DNA from: Flavipsychrobacter sp.
GTDB lineage: Bacteria; Bacteroidota; Bacteroidia; Chitinophagales; Chitinophagaceae
Reading direction: 5' to 3'
Assembly (NCBI GenBank): GCA_016786615.1
Contig: JAEUVX010000004.1
Span: 124,001 to 188,000 of the forward strand
Length of the DNA: 64,000 nucleotides
Shown here: in pieces, positions 40,387-46,057 of the stretch
Layout of the letters: every line of letters begins with the position of its first letter
How positions within the stretch are numbered: position 1 is the first letter of the stretch
The notes under the pieces: model-generated
Told to the model about the DNA's origin: nothing
Databases searched by the model: none
What the model saw: the letters and a program-made list of their open reading frames with translations, nothing else
Program-made: the position numbers and the translations under genes

Positions 40387-41229
40387 CTATGGTTGTGTCT
40401 GGAAAAGCCCAAAGAACCATATATCGGTTTGTGTGCCAAAATCTACATGTTCAAAGTCTTTCAGCAGATTTACAAAACCGTAATCTACGCCGAATTGCAA
40501 ATTGCTCGGTGCAGAACCGCTAAGCATAGTATCGTTATCGCAATCGTAGAACGAAACAACAAGCGAATTTGATGTAAAGTTGGGGTTTACAATTGGTATC
40601 AGGTTTGGTGTTGACCCGCCACCATCGGTAAACGGAAATACTACCGGAATGCCATTGAACTTAAGTGTAGGCGTAGATACGGTAATTTTGCCTGAAGAAT
40701 AAGTAGGGCTGATAGAACTGAATGTATTGCTCGGAAACGGTGGTTGTGCATTCATGGCATATCCACCACCAGAAGCTACTACTTGTGCTGTAAGCCTTGC
40801 AGGGGTAGATACTGCAATGTCAACACGGGTGTCATCTGCATCTGCAGCAAATACATAAGGTGAATTGGCCACACCGCTTGCAGCACTGTTAATCAGGTTG
40901 GCGGTAGGTAAAACCTGTATGCTTATCGGCGTAACAAATTTTGTGCCTCCTCCTGTCATACTACTTGGGTAGGTGATGCGCAGTTTTTTATTATCTGCAC
41001 TACCTACAAATGATAGTGTTCCCTGATTGATAGTGGTTGCAGAACCGGTTCTCCATTCAGGCACATTTGCTCCTGATGTGTAAGTGAATTTGATTCTGCC
41101 TGCCATTATCCACAGGTTGTGTTTGCCCTCGGTGTTAATCTGTTCACAGGCAAGGGCTGTGTTCGTGATAAGGTCACTGAATGCATCGTTGATGCTTGTC
41201 TCAATTTGGCTTCTTGTTAAGCAGCTCAT
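40387..41229 (-). CDS. Protein of unknown function, no export signal
   Basis: 280 residues beginning MSCLTRSQIETSINDAFSD; no signal peptide or membrane segment. A helical start is followed by long beta-rich sequence with many Thr, Ser and Asn (GTKFVTPISIQVLPTANL, RVDIAVSTPARLTAQVVASGG) and a polar C-terminus with FYDCDNDTMLSG. It is not obviously phage-related, although it is the last gene before the mobile region. No family recognised. Confidence 0.6.
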   Translation of the reverse strand: MSCLTRSQIETSINDAFSDLITNTALACEQINTEGKHNLWIMAGRIKFTYTSGANVPEWRTGSATTINQGTLSFVGSADNKKLRITYPSSMTGGGTKFVTPISIQVLPTANLINSAASGVANSPYVFAADADDTRVDIAVSTPARLTAQVVASGGGYAMNAQPPFPSNTFSSISPTYSSGKITVSTPTLKFNGIPVVFPFTDGGGSTPNLIPIVNPNFTSNSLVVSFYDCDNDTMLSGSAPSNLQFGVDYGFVNLLKDFEHVDFGTQTDIWFFGLFQTQP

Positions 41230-41731
41230 GATTGTATGGTTTTAAAGTGAAAAAAATCTAGGTAAGGTAAAGCCATGTATGCTGTATATCTACAGCAGGT
41301 AATGCACTATCGGAAGGATGTGGAAACTAAAAAGAAAGTAGTAATAACTACTGTAGTTAAATAGATTGTTCATGGTTGTGGTATTTATAAGTTGTAAATT
41401 AAAATTGCTTGATTTTATTTAAAAAACAAAATAGTTTTTGTTAAAACAGCATTATTTTTTTCAAGAGATGTGGCGTTGAAATTGCCGGAGAGAGGACGTT
41501 TATAGGGTACACAATTTTATGTTATATAGTAAAGCAAAAATACAATAATTATTTGTTTTTATAAAATAAAAAAATTACAGTCATCACGATGTTGCTTCGT
41601 ACATATTTGACTTCGCAAATATTCCCTCGCCCCGAGGTATCGGGATGATAACACAATGACGGTGTGGGGTAACACAATAGCAGGCAGCGGTGTGTCCATT
41701 CGTGCAGGGTTATTACACACCCCTAACCCCT
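41230..41731. other. AT-rich intergenic region with small palindromes
   Basis: About 500 bases with no supportable gene. It contains ATATTTG-ACTTCG-CAAATAT (41607-41626, 7-bp stem) and a CCTCG...CGAGG hairpin nearby at about 41628-41640, of the kind seen in dispersed intergenic repeats. Just before the transposon is a CACCCCTAACCCCT string (41718-41731) that originally continued directly into 44752. Confidence 0.5.
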
Positions 41732-41739
41732 CTCAATAG
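41732..41739. repeat. Left 8-bp target site duplication of the transposon
   Basis: CTCAATAG, identical to 44744-44751. Eight-base duplications are characteristic of IS1595-family insertions. Confidence 0.9.
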
Positions 41740-41765
41740 GGTAACTATACCCATTTACACGTAGG
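41740..41765 (+). repeat. Left terminal inverted repeat
   Basis: Starts GGTAACTATACCCATTTACA and ends CGTAGG; exact reverse complement of 44718-44743. The two ends diverge immediately inside. Confidence 0.92.
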
Positions 41766-41850
41766 GATATTGGATATGACTATCTGTTAATAACTTATAT
41801 GAATATTGCCGTTGCCTACGCTTTCGGTAATTTTATACAAATGAATATTT

Positions 41851-42042
41851 ATGAATGATAATACAGAATTAAAAGAGGCGCAAATGGAATTAGGTAGGCT
41901 TATGTTACAATTGGAAAATTGTTATGAGGTAAGCAATGGCAACAGGATATTAAAAGATGGGGCTGGTGCGAAAAGGATTAATGGAGAAATAGAAGCGTTG
42001 AAAGAAAAGCACCGACAATTAAGGTTTGCCGACAAGTTATAG
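41851..42042 (+). CDS. Small passenger protein of unknown function
   Basis: 63 residues, charged and helical with probable coiled coil (MNDNTELKEAQMELGRLMLQ and EIEALKEKHRQLRFADKL). First ORF inside the left end of the transposon, plus strand. No family recognised. Reading supported by normal amino-acid composition and position only. Confidence 0.5.
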   Translation: MNDNTELKEAQMELGRLMLQLENCYEVSNGNRILKDGAGAKRINGEIEALKEKHRQLRFADKL

Positions 42043-42056
42043 AACATGGGGTAGCA

Positions 42057-42203
42057 TTAGCTACCCTTTTTCTTTTTAGCACTTTTATCGTTAGCGTTCT
42101 TAGCCGCAGCCTGCATTATGTCAAGGAATGAACCTTTAACAACTACCTTTTCTTCGTATTTGCCACGTTCTTTTGGCTTTTTAACCTTTGATGCTTTAGC
42201 CAT
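42057..42203 (-). CDS. 48-residue lysine-rich passenger protein
   Basis: A short ORF from an ATG at 42203 to a TAA at 42057-42059: MAKASKVKKPKERGKYEEK followed by VVVKGSFLDIMQAAAKNAN and a Lys-rich tail. It has a matching -7 box upstream (TAAATTTG on the minus strand, 42210-42217), only six bases before the ATG. Similar tiny proteins with a GSFxDIMxAA core are, from memory, common in Bacteroidota. Role unknown; could be a small nucleic-acid-binding protein. Confidence 0.65.
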   Translation of the reverse strand: MAKASKVKKPKERGKYEEKVVVKGSFLDIMQAAAKNANDKSAKKKKGS

Positions 42204-42209
42204 AAATAG

Positions 42210-42217
42210 CAAATTTA
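42210..42217 (-). promoter_or_regulatory. Putative -7 box of the 48-residue passenger gene
   Basis: TAAATTTG on the minus strand (CAAATTTA on plus) matches TAnnTTTG and faces away from the candidate RNA promoter at 42230-42237. Confidence 0.5.
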
Positions 42218-42229
42218 AGGATTTTAATG

Positions 42230-42237
42230 TACCTTTG
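42230..42237 (+). promoter_or_regulatory. Putative -7 box of the candidate RNA
   Basis: TACCTTTG matches TAnnTTTG. A transcript would begin near 42243-42245, just before the first stem of the predicted RNA. Confidence 0.5.
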
Positions 42238-42243
42238 TATTAC

Positions 42244-42476
42244 ACAAAACAAGAAAGCCCAGTAGAAACTGGGCGACCATTTGCGAGATGGTTTCTTGAT
42301 TTGGGTTGTAAAAGGCTCTTATCACACCTGCCGTGTTTCGTTATCGCTTATGAGGCGGAACTACTTAGCAGAACCAGAGGATGTCACCGATATATATTGG
42401 TCGGTGTATCTATGATAAGGTCACTTTCCTTGACTCCAGTATTTTTATAGCCGCTATCATGCGGCTTTATTTTTAT
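42244..42476 (+). ncRNA. Candidate structured non-coding RNA inside the transposon
   Basis: Between a -7 box (42230-42237) and an intrinsic terminator (42449-42476) lies ~230 nt with no good ORF. The 5' part folds as a three-way junction: P1 CAAGAA/TTCTTG (42250-42255 with 42293-42298), P2 GCCCAGT/ACTGGGC (42257-42263 with 42268-42274) and P3 ACCAT/ATGGT (42276-42280 with 42288-42292). Further on, CTTATCA (42318-42324) pairs with TGATAAG (42413-42419), enclosing hairpin CACCGA/TCGGTG (42385-42390 with 42401-42406). No known RNA family recognised. Structure is from inspection, not computed energy. Confidence 0.5.
42449..42476 (+). terminator. Intrinsic terminator of the candidate RNA
   Basis: AGCCGC and GCGGCT pair around TATCAT and are followed by TTATTTTTAT on the plus strand. 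The minus strand lacks an equal T-run, so it serves plus-strand transcription. Confidence 0.65.
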
Positions 42477-43234
42477 CATTTACTAAAGGCTTTAATATTT
42501 TGGAGTTGTTTAATTATTGCATCCCAGTCGCTCAGAGTCATGCTTTCTAATACTGGAAAATGCAATTCCTGACCTCTTACAAAAATTGATATTTTCTTAA
42601 TTACTGAAGTGCCTACTTCGTAGTTTGATACACCAGGTTTTGTAGTATTCTCAGGCTTTATCTGGCTTTTCCCTGTTGCCCCCCTCTTATCGTTTAGCTT
42701 AGTAGGTGTTTTTGGCTTACTACCCTTAATTGGCAACGGTTCAATTTTTATTTCGGCATCTACATTTAGAACACCATCTTCGTTAATTAGACCTAAAAAT
42801 CTGGCATTCTCTATAAATACCCTACTTGCCAATTCTGCTCCATTATCAGTAAATTCATGGTCTCTTACCAAATCTATAATTAAACCTTGTTCAGTTATTT
42901 TTTTGCCGTTAAATAACGAAATAAGCGTCTTATATATAGGCGGAGACGTAAAAGCGGATAAATATAAGGCGCTTTCTTCCCCATCCTTAGGGAGTCTTAA
43001 TGCACTGCAAACTTTCCCGATAGCGCCATATCCTTTACCTCTTTCTATTTTCATGAACCCATACTGCGAACTTGAAATAGCAAAGTTATCGGCTTCCCTT
43101 AACGCCACGCTACCTTTTTTAGCCAAATCAGCATAAGACAAAACCGTTTCGCCAACACTTTCAAATATAGTGACGCTAAACCCTTTGGCTATGGGGATTG
43201 TTTTTGAAGGAAATGAAGGAGACCTTTTTTTCAT
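42476..43234 (-). CDS. 252-residue passenger protein of unknown function
   Basis: No signal peptide. The N-terminal ~160 residues (LSYADLAKKGSVALREADNFAIS, YGAIGKVCSALRLP, LISLFNGKKITEQGLIIDLVR) look like tandem winged-helix units, then a Lys/Pro/Thr-rich linker (about 165-205), then a small C-terminal domain (KKISIFVRGQELHFPVLE, SDWDAIIKQLQNIK). The pattern suggests a DNA-binding or adaptor protein, by inference only. AT-rich, lying divergent from the transposase, which makes it the main cargo gene of the element. Confidence 0.65.
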   Translation of the reverse strand: MKKRSPSFPSKTIPIAKGFSVTIFESVGETVLSYADLAKKGSVALREADNFAISSSQYGFMKIERGKGYGAIGKVCSALRLPKDGEESALYLSAFTSPPIYKTLISLFNGKKITEQGLIIDLVRDHEFTDNGAELASRVFIENARFLGLINEDGVLNVDAEIKIEPLPIKGSKPKTPTKLNDKRGATGKSQIKPENTTKPGVSNYEVGTSVIKKISIFVRGQELHFPVLESMTLSDWDAIIKQLQNIKAFSK

Positions 43235-43425
43235 ACTGCGTTATTCTAATACGAAGTTAGGACGTTTTATCAAAAAAATATCATTTTAGACGAAAAAAAT
43301 TATTATCATTGATAATCAATTGGTTATAATAGTTTTATTTCAATTTTTATCTTATATAAATATTTTATTCGTCCTAAAAGCGTCTAAATAGTTGAAATAA
43401 ATTAGTAGATATTGCACGCAATGCT

Positions 43426-43433
43426 TATCTTTG
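43426..43433 (+). promoter_or_regulatory. Putative -7 box of the transposase gene
   Basis: TATCTTTG matches TAnnTTTG, 19 bases before the ATG at 43453. Confidence 0.5.
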
Positions 43434-43452
43434 TATCCTAATAGCAATCGAA

Positions 43453-44409
43453 ATGGATTTCACTTTCAAGACAATACATGAGTTTCATAATTACTTCAAT
43501 AGTGAGAAAATTTGTTATGAATTTTTAGAGATACAACGTTGGGGGAATACACCTGTATGCCCACACTGCGGCTCAATTAAGACACCTTATAAAGTAAAAG
43601 CACGTGGTAAATTTCAAGATATACCATCGTATCGTTGTAGCGAACGTGGATGTGATTTACCATTTACAGTGCGTACTGGTAGCATATTTGAAGGCTCTAA
43701 AGTTGAATTGAAGAAATGGTTTCATGCTGCATACGAGCTATCTATAAGCAAAAAGAGTATTAGTTCTATTGAGCTTGGTATACGCATAGGAGTAAGTCAA
43801 AAAACCGCATGGTTTATCAACCATCGTTTACGTGCTATGTTAGCTGAAACAAATCCTGCATTGCTTACAGGTGATGTTGAGATTGACGAAACCTATGTTG
43901 GTGGTAAAGAAGCTAACAAACACAAGTCTAAGCGTCAGCCTAAAGGCACTACAGGCGCAAAGGGTAAAGCTCCTATGGTAGGTTTATTACAACGTAATGG
44001 TAATATGGTATTACGTGCTATTGATGCTGATAAAGCAAACGGTGAAAACATCAAACCAATTGTTAGGCAGTTCGTTAGTCCTGATGCTGTATTGCACACG
44101 GATGGCTTTGGCGCTTATAAGGATTTACATAAAGAGTTTGCAGGTCATAACATCGTTTACCATGATAAGGGCGAATATGTACGTGGCAAAGCACACACTA
44201 ATACAATCGAGGGCTTTTGGTCTATTATGAAGCGTGGTATTATTGGTACGTTCCACACAGTAAGCCCACAGCACTTACAACGCTATTGTGATGAGTTTGC
44301 ACACCGTTATAATACACGTGAATTGAAGCCTGTACAAAGATTTGCAGAAGGGATTAAGAATAGCGGGAATAAACGATTGACATATAAAGAACTTACCAGT
44401 AAAAAGTAA
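43453..44409 (+). CDS. IS1595-family (ISXO2-like) DDNK transposase
   Basis: 318 residues. An N-terminal zinc ribbon (CPHC at residues 36-39 paired with Cys62 and Cys67) is followed by a helical DNA-binding stretch and the ISXO2-like catalytic domain: Asp145 in EIDETYVGG, Asp217 in VLHTDGFGAYKDL, and HTNTIEGFWSIMKR with Asn250 and Lys260, giving the DDNK set typical of this family. Full length with no frameshift. Lies between perfect inverted repeats and should be able to mobilise the whole 3-kb element. Confidence 0.95.
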   Translation: MDFTFKTIHEFHNYFNSEKICYEFLEIQRWGNTPVCPHCGSIKTPYKVKARGKFQDIPSYRCSERGCDLPFTVRTGSIFEGSKVELKKWFHAAYELSISKKSISSIELGIRIGVSQKTAWFINHRLRAMLAETNPALLTGDVEIDETYVGGKEANKHKSKRQPKGTTGAKGKAPMVGLLQRNGNMVLRAIDADKANGENIKPIVRQFVSPDAVLHTDGFGAYKDLHKEFAGHNIVYHDKGEYVRGKAHTNTIEGFWSIMKRGIIGTFHTVSPQHLQRYCDEFAHRYNTRELKPVQRFAEGIKNSGNKRLTYKELTSKK

Positions 44410-44410
44410 A

Positions 44411-44442
44411 AAAAGAAACCAGCTAAATGCGGGTTTCTTTAT
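44411..44442 (+). terminator. Intrinsic terminator of the transposase gene
   Basis: AAAGAAACC and GGTTTCTTT pair around a ~10-base loop, then a short AT-rich tail. It begins just after the transposase stop. Confidence 0.6.
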
Positions 44443-44458
44443 GTGCGTTATCTCATTT

Positions 44459-44674
44459 TTAACCAATTACCACAACTCTAAACATTCCAGCCTTTGGTGG
44501 AGAACTGAAACTTACCTTAATGTTGTTTTGGCTTTCATAACGAATATCTGCAATAGCCTGATTGCCAGTTAATACACTATAGACAGAAACGACAACGTCA
44601 CGAGTGCCTAAATTGTGAGCTATATCAAAATCTGTTGTTTCTGTATCCCCTATGTCCTGTGTGTATTTTTGCAT
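44459..44674 (-). CDS. 71-residue phage tail-fibre-like passenger protein
   Basis: The protein reads DFDIAHNLGTRDVVVSVYSV ... NNIKVSFSSPPKAGMFRVVVIG, a pattern I know from short beta-domains in phage tail fibre and structural proteins (F-x-I-x-HNLGT-x-DVVV ... YRVVV-x-G). No signal peptide. It is the last ORF before the right inverted repeat, on the minus strand. It may be a captured fragment of a phage structural gene. Function within the element is unknown. Confidence 0.55.
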   Translation of the reverse strand: MQKYTQDIGDTETTDFDIAHNLGTRDVVVSVYSVLTGNQAIADIRYESQNNIKVSFSSPPKAGMFRVVVIG

Positions 44675-44717
44675 TGTATTTTTTTTTAAAGATACAACTT
44701 TCCATAAAAGCTTATCA

Positions 44718-44743
44718 CCTACGTGTAAATGGGTATAGTTACC
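44718..44743 (-). repeat. Right terminal inverted repeat
   Basis: Exact reverse complement of 41740-41765; ends ...GTATAGTTACC at 44743. Confidence 0.92.
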
Positions 44744-44751
44744 CTCAATAG
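44744..44751. repeat. Right 8-bp target site duplication of the transposon
   Basis: CTCAATAG, identical to 41732-41739. Confidence 0.9.
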
Positions 44752-44770
44752 AGGAAGTGTTTTTTCTTCC

Positions 44771-46057
44771 CTACCAAAACCGCATCGTCGGCCCGTCAAA
44801 GTGCAGCTTCAGGTCGGTGGTGCGTCCATTGCGCCATTTGCATACCAGCAGGTCGGCATGGTGCAGGGTGCTTTCGCCGCTATCGGTGGTGCGTATGCCT
44901 GCCTGCCAGTCGCGGTGGAGGAGCATTACGGCATCGGCATCCTGCTCTATGGCGCCGCTTTCGCGCAGGTCGGCAAGGGTAGGGCGTTTGTTATGCCTGT
45001 GTTCACTTTCGCGGTTCAGCTGGCTCAGTGCCAGTACGGGTATGTTCAGGCTCATGGCTATCATCTTCAGCCCGCGGCTGATGGCGCTTATCTGCTGCTC
45101 TCTGGGGCGTTTGCTGTCGGCGTGTTCCTGTATCAGTTGCAGGTAGTCCACAATCAGCAGGTGTATGCCGCTGTTTTGCTGCAGTTGCTCGGCACGTGCG
45201 CGTATGTCGTGTACGGTCAGCTGCGGGTCGTCGGTAAAGAACAGTGGCAGGTGTGCCAGTTTATCGGCTACTTCGGGGTTTTCGCCGCCTCTGCCGCGTG
45301 TTATGTCGCCATAAGATATATTCATCTCCTGCGCTATCATGCGTGCATACAGCTCGTGTGCGGTCATCTCCATAGATACAAATGCGGTGCTGTGCCCTGC
45401 TTTGGCGGCAGCCAGTGCTATGCCGCATGCCAGTGCGCTTTTGCCCACCGATGGCCTTGCCCCGATGATTACCAGCTGCCCGGGCAGAAAGCCTCCGTTT
45501 ATATCATCAAGGTCTTGTATTGTTGTAGAAATGCCATGAACGGTTTCGGGGTTCATACGCAGGTTATCGGCCAGGCGTGTGGCGGCATCGCGTGCATTCA
45601 CCCATTTGCTGATGCTGCGTATGCTGAGGGCTTCGCGTATCTGCTCCTGCAATTGCTGTGCGGTAAGGGCTACACCGTCGGTACCATTGTATGCGCTGGT
45701 GGTTAGTTGCAGCATCAGTCGGCGTGCTGCCAGTTCGCGCAGTTGTATGCACCAGTGCTGCAGGTGTACGGGCAGGTGTTTTTCTTCTGCCAGTTCGGCT
45801 ACGTAGAAGGCTGCGGGTACGCCATCTATCTGCTCATGCCCATCGGTATATAGCCTTGCTATGATGCTGAGTGTGTCGAGTGGTGCGCCTTCCTGCCACA
45901 GGCTGCGCATGGCACGAAACACAACAAGGTTGCTGCGTTCGTGAAAACAGATATCATCGAGCAGGTGGTAAACGGTGCTGTATGCTTCGTGGTGGAGGCT
46001 GCAGATGCCGAGTACGCCGCGTTCTATATCGGGGTTGTAGTGTATGTATGGTTTCAT
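44771..46057 (-). CDS. dnaB: Phage-type replicative DNA helicase DnaB
   Basis: 428 residues, a DnaB family hexameric 5'-3' helicase. The N-terminal helical domain (about 8-120) binds primase or loader; the RecA-like core has Walker A GARPSVGKS (199-207), Walker B LLIVDYLQL (Asp304) and the DnaB H4-like LADLRESGAIEQDADAVMLLHR. It is shorter and more diverged at the N-terminus than chromosomal DnaB. With a DUF4373 replisome organiser just upstream it looks like a phage or element replication gene. The transposon sits 20 bases beyond its stop. Confidence 0.93.
   Translation of the reverse strand: MKPYIHYNPDIERGVLGICSLHHEAYSTVYHLLDDICFHERSNLVVFRAMRSLWQEGAPLDTLSIIARLYTDGHEQIDGVPAAFYVAELAEEKHLPVHLQHWCIQLRELAARRLMLQLTTSAYNGTDGVALTAQQLQEQIREALSIRSISKWVNARDAATRLADNLRMNPETVHGISTTIQDLDDINGGFLPGQLVIIGARPSVGKSALACGIALAAAKAGHSTAFVSMEMTAHELYARMIAQEMNISYGDITRGRGGENPEVADKLAHLPLFFTDDPQLTVHDIRARAEQLQQNSGIHLLIVDYLQLIQEHADSKRPREQQISAISRGLKMIAMSLNIPVLALSQLNRESEHRHNKRPTLADLRESGAIEQDADAVMLLHRDWQAGIRTTDSGESTLHHADLLVCKWRNGRTTDLKLHFDGPTMRFW

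Follow-up and report, generated by a model that had tools for sequence, protein, structure and literature searches.

What is the block of DNA at positions 41732-44751 of the 64-kb window that we analyzed (64,000 nucleotides of contig JAEUVX010000004.1 of Flavipsychrobacter sp., Bacteroidota), and what does it carry? A first-pass annotation, made from the letters alone, had described it as a complete IS1595-family transposon with cargo. That the block is a transposon is secure. The fuller account, which we consider probable, is that it is an intact IS1595 transposon from a lineage with exchangeable cargo and that its cargo here includes an addiction or defense module composed of an RNA and a winged-helix protein.

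The window contains a complete IS1595-family transposon

The complete element is 3,004 bp long and lies at 41740-44743, between the two copies of the duplication. As the first-pass annotation had claimed, its ends are perfect: the 26-bp inverted repeat GGTAACTATACCCATTTACACGTAGG is identical at 26 of 26 positions, and the same 8 bp, CTCAATAG, stand on both sides. The features that define the element are as follows.

41732..41739, no strand: target-site duplication, left copy, CTCAATAG (sequence match)
41740..41765, plus strand: left terminal inverted repeat, 26 bp (sequence and the ends of relatives)
43426..43433, plus strand: box TATCTTTG upstream of the transposase gene (sequence)
43453..44409, plus strand: IS1595-family transposase, 318 amino acids, with D145, D217, E253, and K260 (Pfam, NCBIfam, alignment)
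44718..44743, minus strand: right terminal inverted repeat, 26 bp (sequence match)
44744..44751, no strand: target-site duplication, right copy, CTCAATAG (sequence match)

We surveyed the window for perfect inverted pairs of at least 14 bp lying 0.3 to 8 kb apart. The element's pair was the longest of nine (28 bp; the second longest was 16 bp). It measured 28 bp rather than 26 because the duplication by chance extends the repeat by 2 bp; an automated duplication test, positive for none of the nine pairs, missed the element's duplication because it measured from these 28-bp ends. The end length was fixed at 26 bp because the ends of relatives begin at GG.

The transposase matches DDE_Tnp_IS1595 (9.4e-42) and Zn_ribbon_IS1595 (1.8e-11) in Pfam and IS1595 in NCBIfam (2.3e-58), and its reading frame runs through all 318 amino acids with no stop, in agreement with the earlier claim that it has no frameshift. 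The DDNK residues reported for it had to be revised. N250 is present, but an alignment of 33 transposases does not place it among the positions with at least 97% conservation; the catalytic set, conserved at that level, is D145, D217, E253, and K260. Zinc-ribbon cysteines C21, C36, C39, C62, and C67 are conserved in the same alignment. In typical IS1595 members, according to PMC8101967, there is a single transposase gene, the duplication is 8 bp, and the transposase has a DDE domain, with a zinc ribbon in the groups other than IS1016. The window element has the DDE catalytic domain, the N-terminal zinc ribbon, and the 8-bp duplication; its single transposase gene is accompanied by passenger genes. 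At least three passengers had been predicted, and frames of 63, 48, 252, and 71 amino acids are open. This anatomy suggests that the GGTAACTATACC ends are the substrate of the transposase, which would generate the 8-bp duplication. In the assembly (15 contigs, 2.96 Mb), we found one full match each for the transposase and the whole element; further copies may be hidden by an assembly in 15 contigs.

Related elements share ends, duplications, and a small protein

Of 294 genomes from the same family, 104 contain relatives of the transposase, and a second collection has them at 38 loci. There are also relatives in 4 phage records, 424 plasmid records, and 4 viral-contig matches, those from phages and plasmids all below 60% identity. 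The end motif had no match in viral contigs. By eye, one IMG/VR contig has an IS1595 transposase right after two large phage-structural-like open reading frames (ORFs) (L108:3056-6960), with an IS200-like gene beyond its RNA.

Searching the collected loci for ends with at most 5 mismatches from the consensus and at most 9 kb apart, we delimited 14 distinct elements, window included, of 1,638 to 4,289 bp. Both flanks could be read for 13 of these, window included, and in each the two 8-bp flanks are identical, so no occupied site among the 13 lacks the duplication. Thus, like ends, related transposases, and 8-bp duplications recur in other genomes, a point that the first-pass annotation had proposed to check, and its description of a complete IS1595-family element with cargo is supported. 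The fourteenth element, L034, fills its whole contig, and two other contigs of its genome show the end with a AATTTATT flank. Genome G089 probably contains several copies, because its four junctions with the end show three different flanks (two are AATTTATT). Three members differing in content occur in genome G266 (L112, L113, and L124), and genome G171 has the transposase-bearing L114 together with L134, which lacks a transposase. The latter (L134:139-2127) has ends of this kind flanked by an 8-bp duplication and holds a methylase and a HindIII-type endonuclease.

One small protein accompanies nearly all of these elements. In the window, it and its neighbor are as follows.

41851..42042, plus strand: 63-amino-acid ORF with no family at or above the cutoff (open reading frame)
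42057..42203, minus strand: 48-amino-acid lysine-rich accessory protein with a KGSFLDIMxAAVKNA-like motif (comparison, profile)

A profile built from nine loci detected the lysine-rich protein (about 45 to 65 amino acids) in 13 of the 14 complete elements, seven of the nine source loci being among these 13; the exception is L134. In the second collection, the profile found it within 4 kb of the transposase at 20 of 33 loci, namely, those with at least 240 transposase residues, some of which are cut by contig ends. Neither this protein nor the 63-amino-acid ORF matched a named family in Pfam, NCBIfam, or PHROG.

The transposase, the ends, and the lysine-rich protein of about 50 amino acids are thus the constant part of the lineage, and the cargo varies. 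Whether the cargo is constant had been posed as a check on the first description; it is not, and the gene for the small accessory protein is the sole one shared. The comparison points to a Bacteroidota lineage that couples transposase, ends, and this small protein with exchangeable cargo.

The cargo is exchangeable and partly of defense type

By similarity, defense, toxin-antitoxin, or restriction genes were recognized in six of the other 13 complete elements, a plain count that is not set against a background rate.

L031: PD-Lambda-2_B, 4.3e-19 (PADLOC)
L034: PDC-S33, 1.2e-119 (PADLOC), with RelA_SpoT (Pfam)
L037: SocA_Panacea (Pfam)
L041: PIN (Pfam)
L113: DUF433 with PIN_10 (Pfam)
L134: DNA methylase and HindIII-type endonuclease (Pfam)

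SocA_Panacea is also found in the partial members L032 and L115, and further transposase loci carry an RmrA-like gene (8.3e-49; L183), a second PD-Lambda-2_B-like gene (2.1e-16; L042), P63C (L186), and DUF3800 (L141). Of the 58 element ORFs of at least 70 amino acids, 22 were run against Pfam and 19 against PADLOC; because only part of them was scanned, the cargo counts are lower bounds.

We placed four cargo labels on the transposase tree (23 labeled rows of 33). They require 11 changes, where the minimum is 3 and shuffled labels average 12.2. Since 47 of 200 shuffles were as low as 11, the labels overall are not clearly clustered. Taken singly, the label for the family of the window's 252-amino-acid protein (family X) hardly clusters (50 of 500 shuffles as low), and the labels "coil" and "XREpep" do not cluster at all (500 of 500 each). 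Cargo thus seems to move between transposase lineages, if not freely.

A structured RNA lies within the element

The first-pass annotation had listed a candidate RNA. This RNA proved to have a covarying structure, and we placed its parts as follows.

42230..42237, plus strand: box TACCTTTG before the RNA (TAnnTTTG type)
42243..42475, plus strand: structured noncoding RNA (fold, homologs, covariation; 5′ end set from the box)
42249-42375, plus strand: conserved core of the RNA (comparison)
42449-42475, plus strand: terminator-like hairpin of the RNA (fold)

We take the TAnnTTTG box to be the Bacteroidota -7 type. Compared with shuffled sequences, the plus strand of the window RNA folds with a z score of -4.11 and its minus strand with one of -2.86; copies in L037, L036, and L031 score -4.10, -2.13, and -3.86. 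Model R1, built with homologs in L035 and L037, found a clear further copy in G214 (57 bits), beside an X gene. Thirteen of 394 genomes had R1 matches under an E value of 0.01; those besides G214 were weak (12 loci, 8e-6 to 0.0077), and matches weaker than the 57 bits of G214 were kept out of all counts. Model R2 describes a second, related RNA type (L036, L168, L016/L141, L108, L047, and L110); L036 comes from a cultured carrier, Flavipsychrobacter stenotrophus RB1R16. In genome searches, R2 matched 11 of 294 genomes from the family and 1 of 198 from the class, and the single class match is in a different family.

Covariation supports the structure. In the six R2 sequences, with a structure set by hand, 12 of 19 pairs changed on both sides (equaled by 0 of 500 shuffles). 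In 15 model-fitted sequences, 15 of 19 did so (6 of 500), with a covariation score of 0.599 that no shuffle of 500 matched. For the window RNA type (four sequences), two-sided changes were seen in 9 of 28 pairs, a number that 0 of 500 shuffles reached; the number of further pair types was ordinary (95 of 500). A hairpin loop UNAUGAG, or a close variant, occurs in most copies of both types.

No Rfam 15 family reached its gathering score in the window or eight related loci. The best match at a relaxed threshold, RyhB, scored 25 bits against a threshold of 55 and was taken as chance. A tRNA and tmRNA search found none. A plain DNA search of 147 genomes for the RNA gave four short matches besides the window. 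The copy in L035 contains CTATGGGTTGTAAAC..CTTTTA (L035:4682-4704), which presumably resembles helix 16 of Bacteroidota 16S rRNA.

The RNA is convergent with its neighbor gene

The RNA counts refer to 20 model-found copies, R1 and R2 training sequences included. Left out are L187 (G265; R2 E value of 1.2e-5, between host-like genes) and L049 (0.015), and RNAs seen by eye alone in L109 and L167 are uncounted. In 20 of 20 copies, the next 3′ ORF of at least 100 amino acids is convergent, and in 18 it lies within 260 bases. Looking up to 30 bases upstream, we found a TAnnTTTG box for 17 of the 20, compared with 2.35% of 2,000 random places. On the 3′ side, every one of the 20 has a terminator-like hairpin, compared with 37% of 300 random places in what is a loose test.

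In the window, the convergent gene encodes the largest passenger.

42476..43234, minus strand: 252-amino-acid cargo protein, family X (predicted structure and profile test)

The protein is predicted to consist of two tandem winged-helix domains, with a low-confidence linker, and a short C-terminal part. We found no match to it in viral contigs or plasmids or, by sequence, in the PDB. Beyond the three founders of family X, a profile test was significant for L166, L110, L155, L167, L168, L047, L169, and L170 (1.8e-72 to 2e-10). Two of these, L155 and L168, have no IS1595 transposase in the stretch read. The first-pass annotation had treated the same cargo outside such ends as evidence against its proposal. 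Such cargo was thus seen in part, and it can therefore live outside the element; this is no argument against the element being a transposon. Among five other X homologs from a protein search, the RNA lies beside G050 (by model) and G123 (by eye). Small cysteine-containing ORFs sharing YITRKG..VYPKN occur near the X gene of L168 (L168:4700-4820, minus strand) and inside an IS1595 element (L139:228-398).

The RNA has X as its partner in the window, L035, L036, L047, L110, L155, and L168 and has a protein with a coiled coil and winged helix ("coil," assigned by eye) in L037, L141, L017, L184, L188, and L202. In L141, a DUF3800 gene lies between the IS1595 transposase and the RNA (L141:4500-5297, minus strand).

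The window module would have two parts: a structured RNA preceded by a promoter box of its own and, convergent with it, the gene for a tandem winged-helix protein. We think it most likely that the two act jointly, as an RNA-protein addiction or phage defense unit. Cooperation is the most economical account because the orientation is kept beside X genes both with and without a transposase.

Several observations weigh against this interpretation, and that the RNA and the protein share a function is itself a guess. The 252-amino-acid protein had no Pfam, PADLOC, NCBIfam, or PHROG match at the limits used. The RNA was not model-found beside X homologs G111, G033, and G077, although the first of these is a close X relative (1.8e-72). 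It also stands beside other proteins, namely, XRE-peptidase operons (L031, L042, and L183) and P63C (L186), and for the RNAs in L108, L182, and L185 no partner is evident. Both the three X homologs lacking a model-found RNA and the dissimilarity of the partners weaken the case for cooperation. Within the "coil" class, BLAST similarity is strong for L037 and L188 alone (6.7e-20) and weak or absent for other pairs, and the "coil" and "XREpep" pairings are partly circular because the classes were named after the RNA neighbors had been seen. PMC9519451 describes PD-Lambda-2 of E. coli as three proteins: a HigB-like protein, an XRE-peptidase, and a third component. The L035 copy has an unremarkable fold (z score of -1.86). 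Finally, the mixed label "other" is clustered on the transposase tree (4 changes, compared with 7.4 when shuffled; 2 of 500 as low).

Alternative roles for the RNA

The RNA might instead belong to the transposon and regulate either the transposase or the gene for the small protein; the architecture of the element would then be what places cargo on its 3′ side. We regard this as unlikely, but it is the main competitor. In its favor, an IS1595 transposase is found no more than 2.1 kb from 15 of the 20 RNAs, though most of these loci were collected via the transposase; among nine genome-search matches outside the R2 training set, a transposase is near five (G058, G136, G173, G188, and G509) and not near G088, G097, G183, and G265. 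In several loci, among them L036 and L031, the RNA and the small protein gene point away from each other, with the RNA beginning in the gap between them. The RNA also accompanies several unrelated cargo proteins. However, L034, L041, L112, L113, L114, and L116, six complete elements that have both the transposase and the small protein, gave no R2 match (E value up to 0.1) and R1 matches no better than chance, and for 5 of the 20 RNAs there is no transposase in the stretch read.

It is less likely still that this is an ordinary IS1595 element with random passengers, in which the folded stretch is merely a strong terminator region. Larger IS1595 members with passengers are known from the ISfinder literature. 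The stretch folds on the minus strand too, its first hairpin could end minus-strand transcripts, and the loose test finds a terminator-like hairpin at more than a third of random places. Against this, covariation exceeds that of shuffles and slid controls, the promoter box keeps a near-fixed distance upstream, and defense-type cargo recurs in relatives. A single-stranded DNA recombination site (attC-like) for cargo exchange would fit the differing cargo beside the fold in related elements, but the promoter box and terminator-like hairpin suit an RNA and no integrase was recognized among the element ORFs examined, so this is very improbable.

We thus retain the RNA-protein module as the preferred reading. 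A more ambitious version, which we offer tentatively, is that a new RNA-protein toxin-antitoxin or phage defense system has been spread in Bacteroidota by IS1595 transposons bearing successive defense modules, with the protein of about 50 amino acids as a general partner in transposition or cargo handling. The RNA-protein pair may be such a new system.

Other cargo and the insertion site

44459..44674, minus strand: 71-amino-acid ORF with a phage virion-protein C-terminal domain over its whole length (PHROG matches)

This ORF matches phrog_38707 (1.3e-16), the head decoration family phrog_2647 (3.5e-11), and 56 phage records. That it serves as a decoy or interferes with capsids is a guess.

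The element is inserted about 20 bp past the end of a dnaB-like helicase gene (gene end at 44771). On the other side is a 280-amino-acid ORF (40387-41229), and neither neighbor is interrupted. The site, CCTCT-CAAT-AGAGG, is a small palindrome (window 41722-41739 joined to 44744-44770). By eye, the sites of L031 and L035 are likewise inverted repeats (3 of 13 sites), as if hairpins or terminators were targeted. Congeners keep the helicase gene, but the sequence beyond it is not conserved; short stretches of the left flank (41520-41630) match DNA near their helicase gene and are likely dispersed repeats. A single 33-bp match (85%) across the joined site, on the far side of the gene in L193, reads as a hairpin-type repeat.

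Comparison with known systems

A small-transposon lineage with like ends, a shared helper gene, and variable, partly defense-type cargo would show gene movement without phages, plasmids, or large elements, and reading the content between such ends is a way to look for new systems. The RNA has no Rfam match, covaries strongly, is preceded by its own promoter box, and keeps one orientation relative to the neighbor gene, which makes its role open to direct testing. A search of the IS1595 literature, with most subscription papers outside its reach, did not meet the combination of transposase, ends, helper, exchangeable cargo, and RNA.

Type III toxin-antitoxin systems have a tandem-repeat RNA antitoxin upstream of a ToxN-like toxin gene. 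The window module resembles them in tying a small RNA to one protein gene, but its RNA is convergent with the gene and is not an upstream tandem-repeat RNA, and its protein matches no family. RNA motifs near DUF3800 genes are orphan structured RNAs that adjoin genes of unknown role; our RNA is likewise an orphan, and L141 has a DUF3800 gene beside it, but the tested loci gave no match at the threshold of any Rfam family. Among the closest known systems for the 252-amino-acid protein, we count the DNA-recognition domains of FokI and Nt.BspD6I and SspB; it differs from a FokI-type enzyme in having a recognition-like core alone, with no nuclease domain by Pfam. Homologs of parts of PD-Lambda-2, PDC-S33, SocA/Panacea, PIN, and HindIII-type restriction-modification systems occur in the element's relatives, and one of RmrA occurs in a further locus, whereas the 252-amino-acid protein matches none of the named systems; with no PADLOC match, it does not place the window cargo in PD-Lambda-2. 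With IS1595 insertion sequences, the element shares the zinc-ribbon and DDE_Tnp_IS1595 transposase, ends starting with GG, and the 8-bp duplication. It is larger, at 3.0 kb compared with 700 to 1,287 bp listed for IS1595 by a Ralstonia survey (PMC7371123), and it adds a shared small protein, exchangeable cargo, and an RNA.

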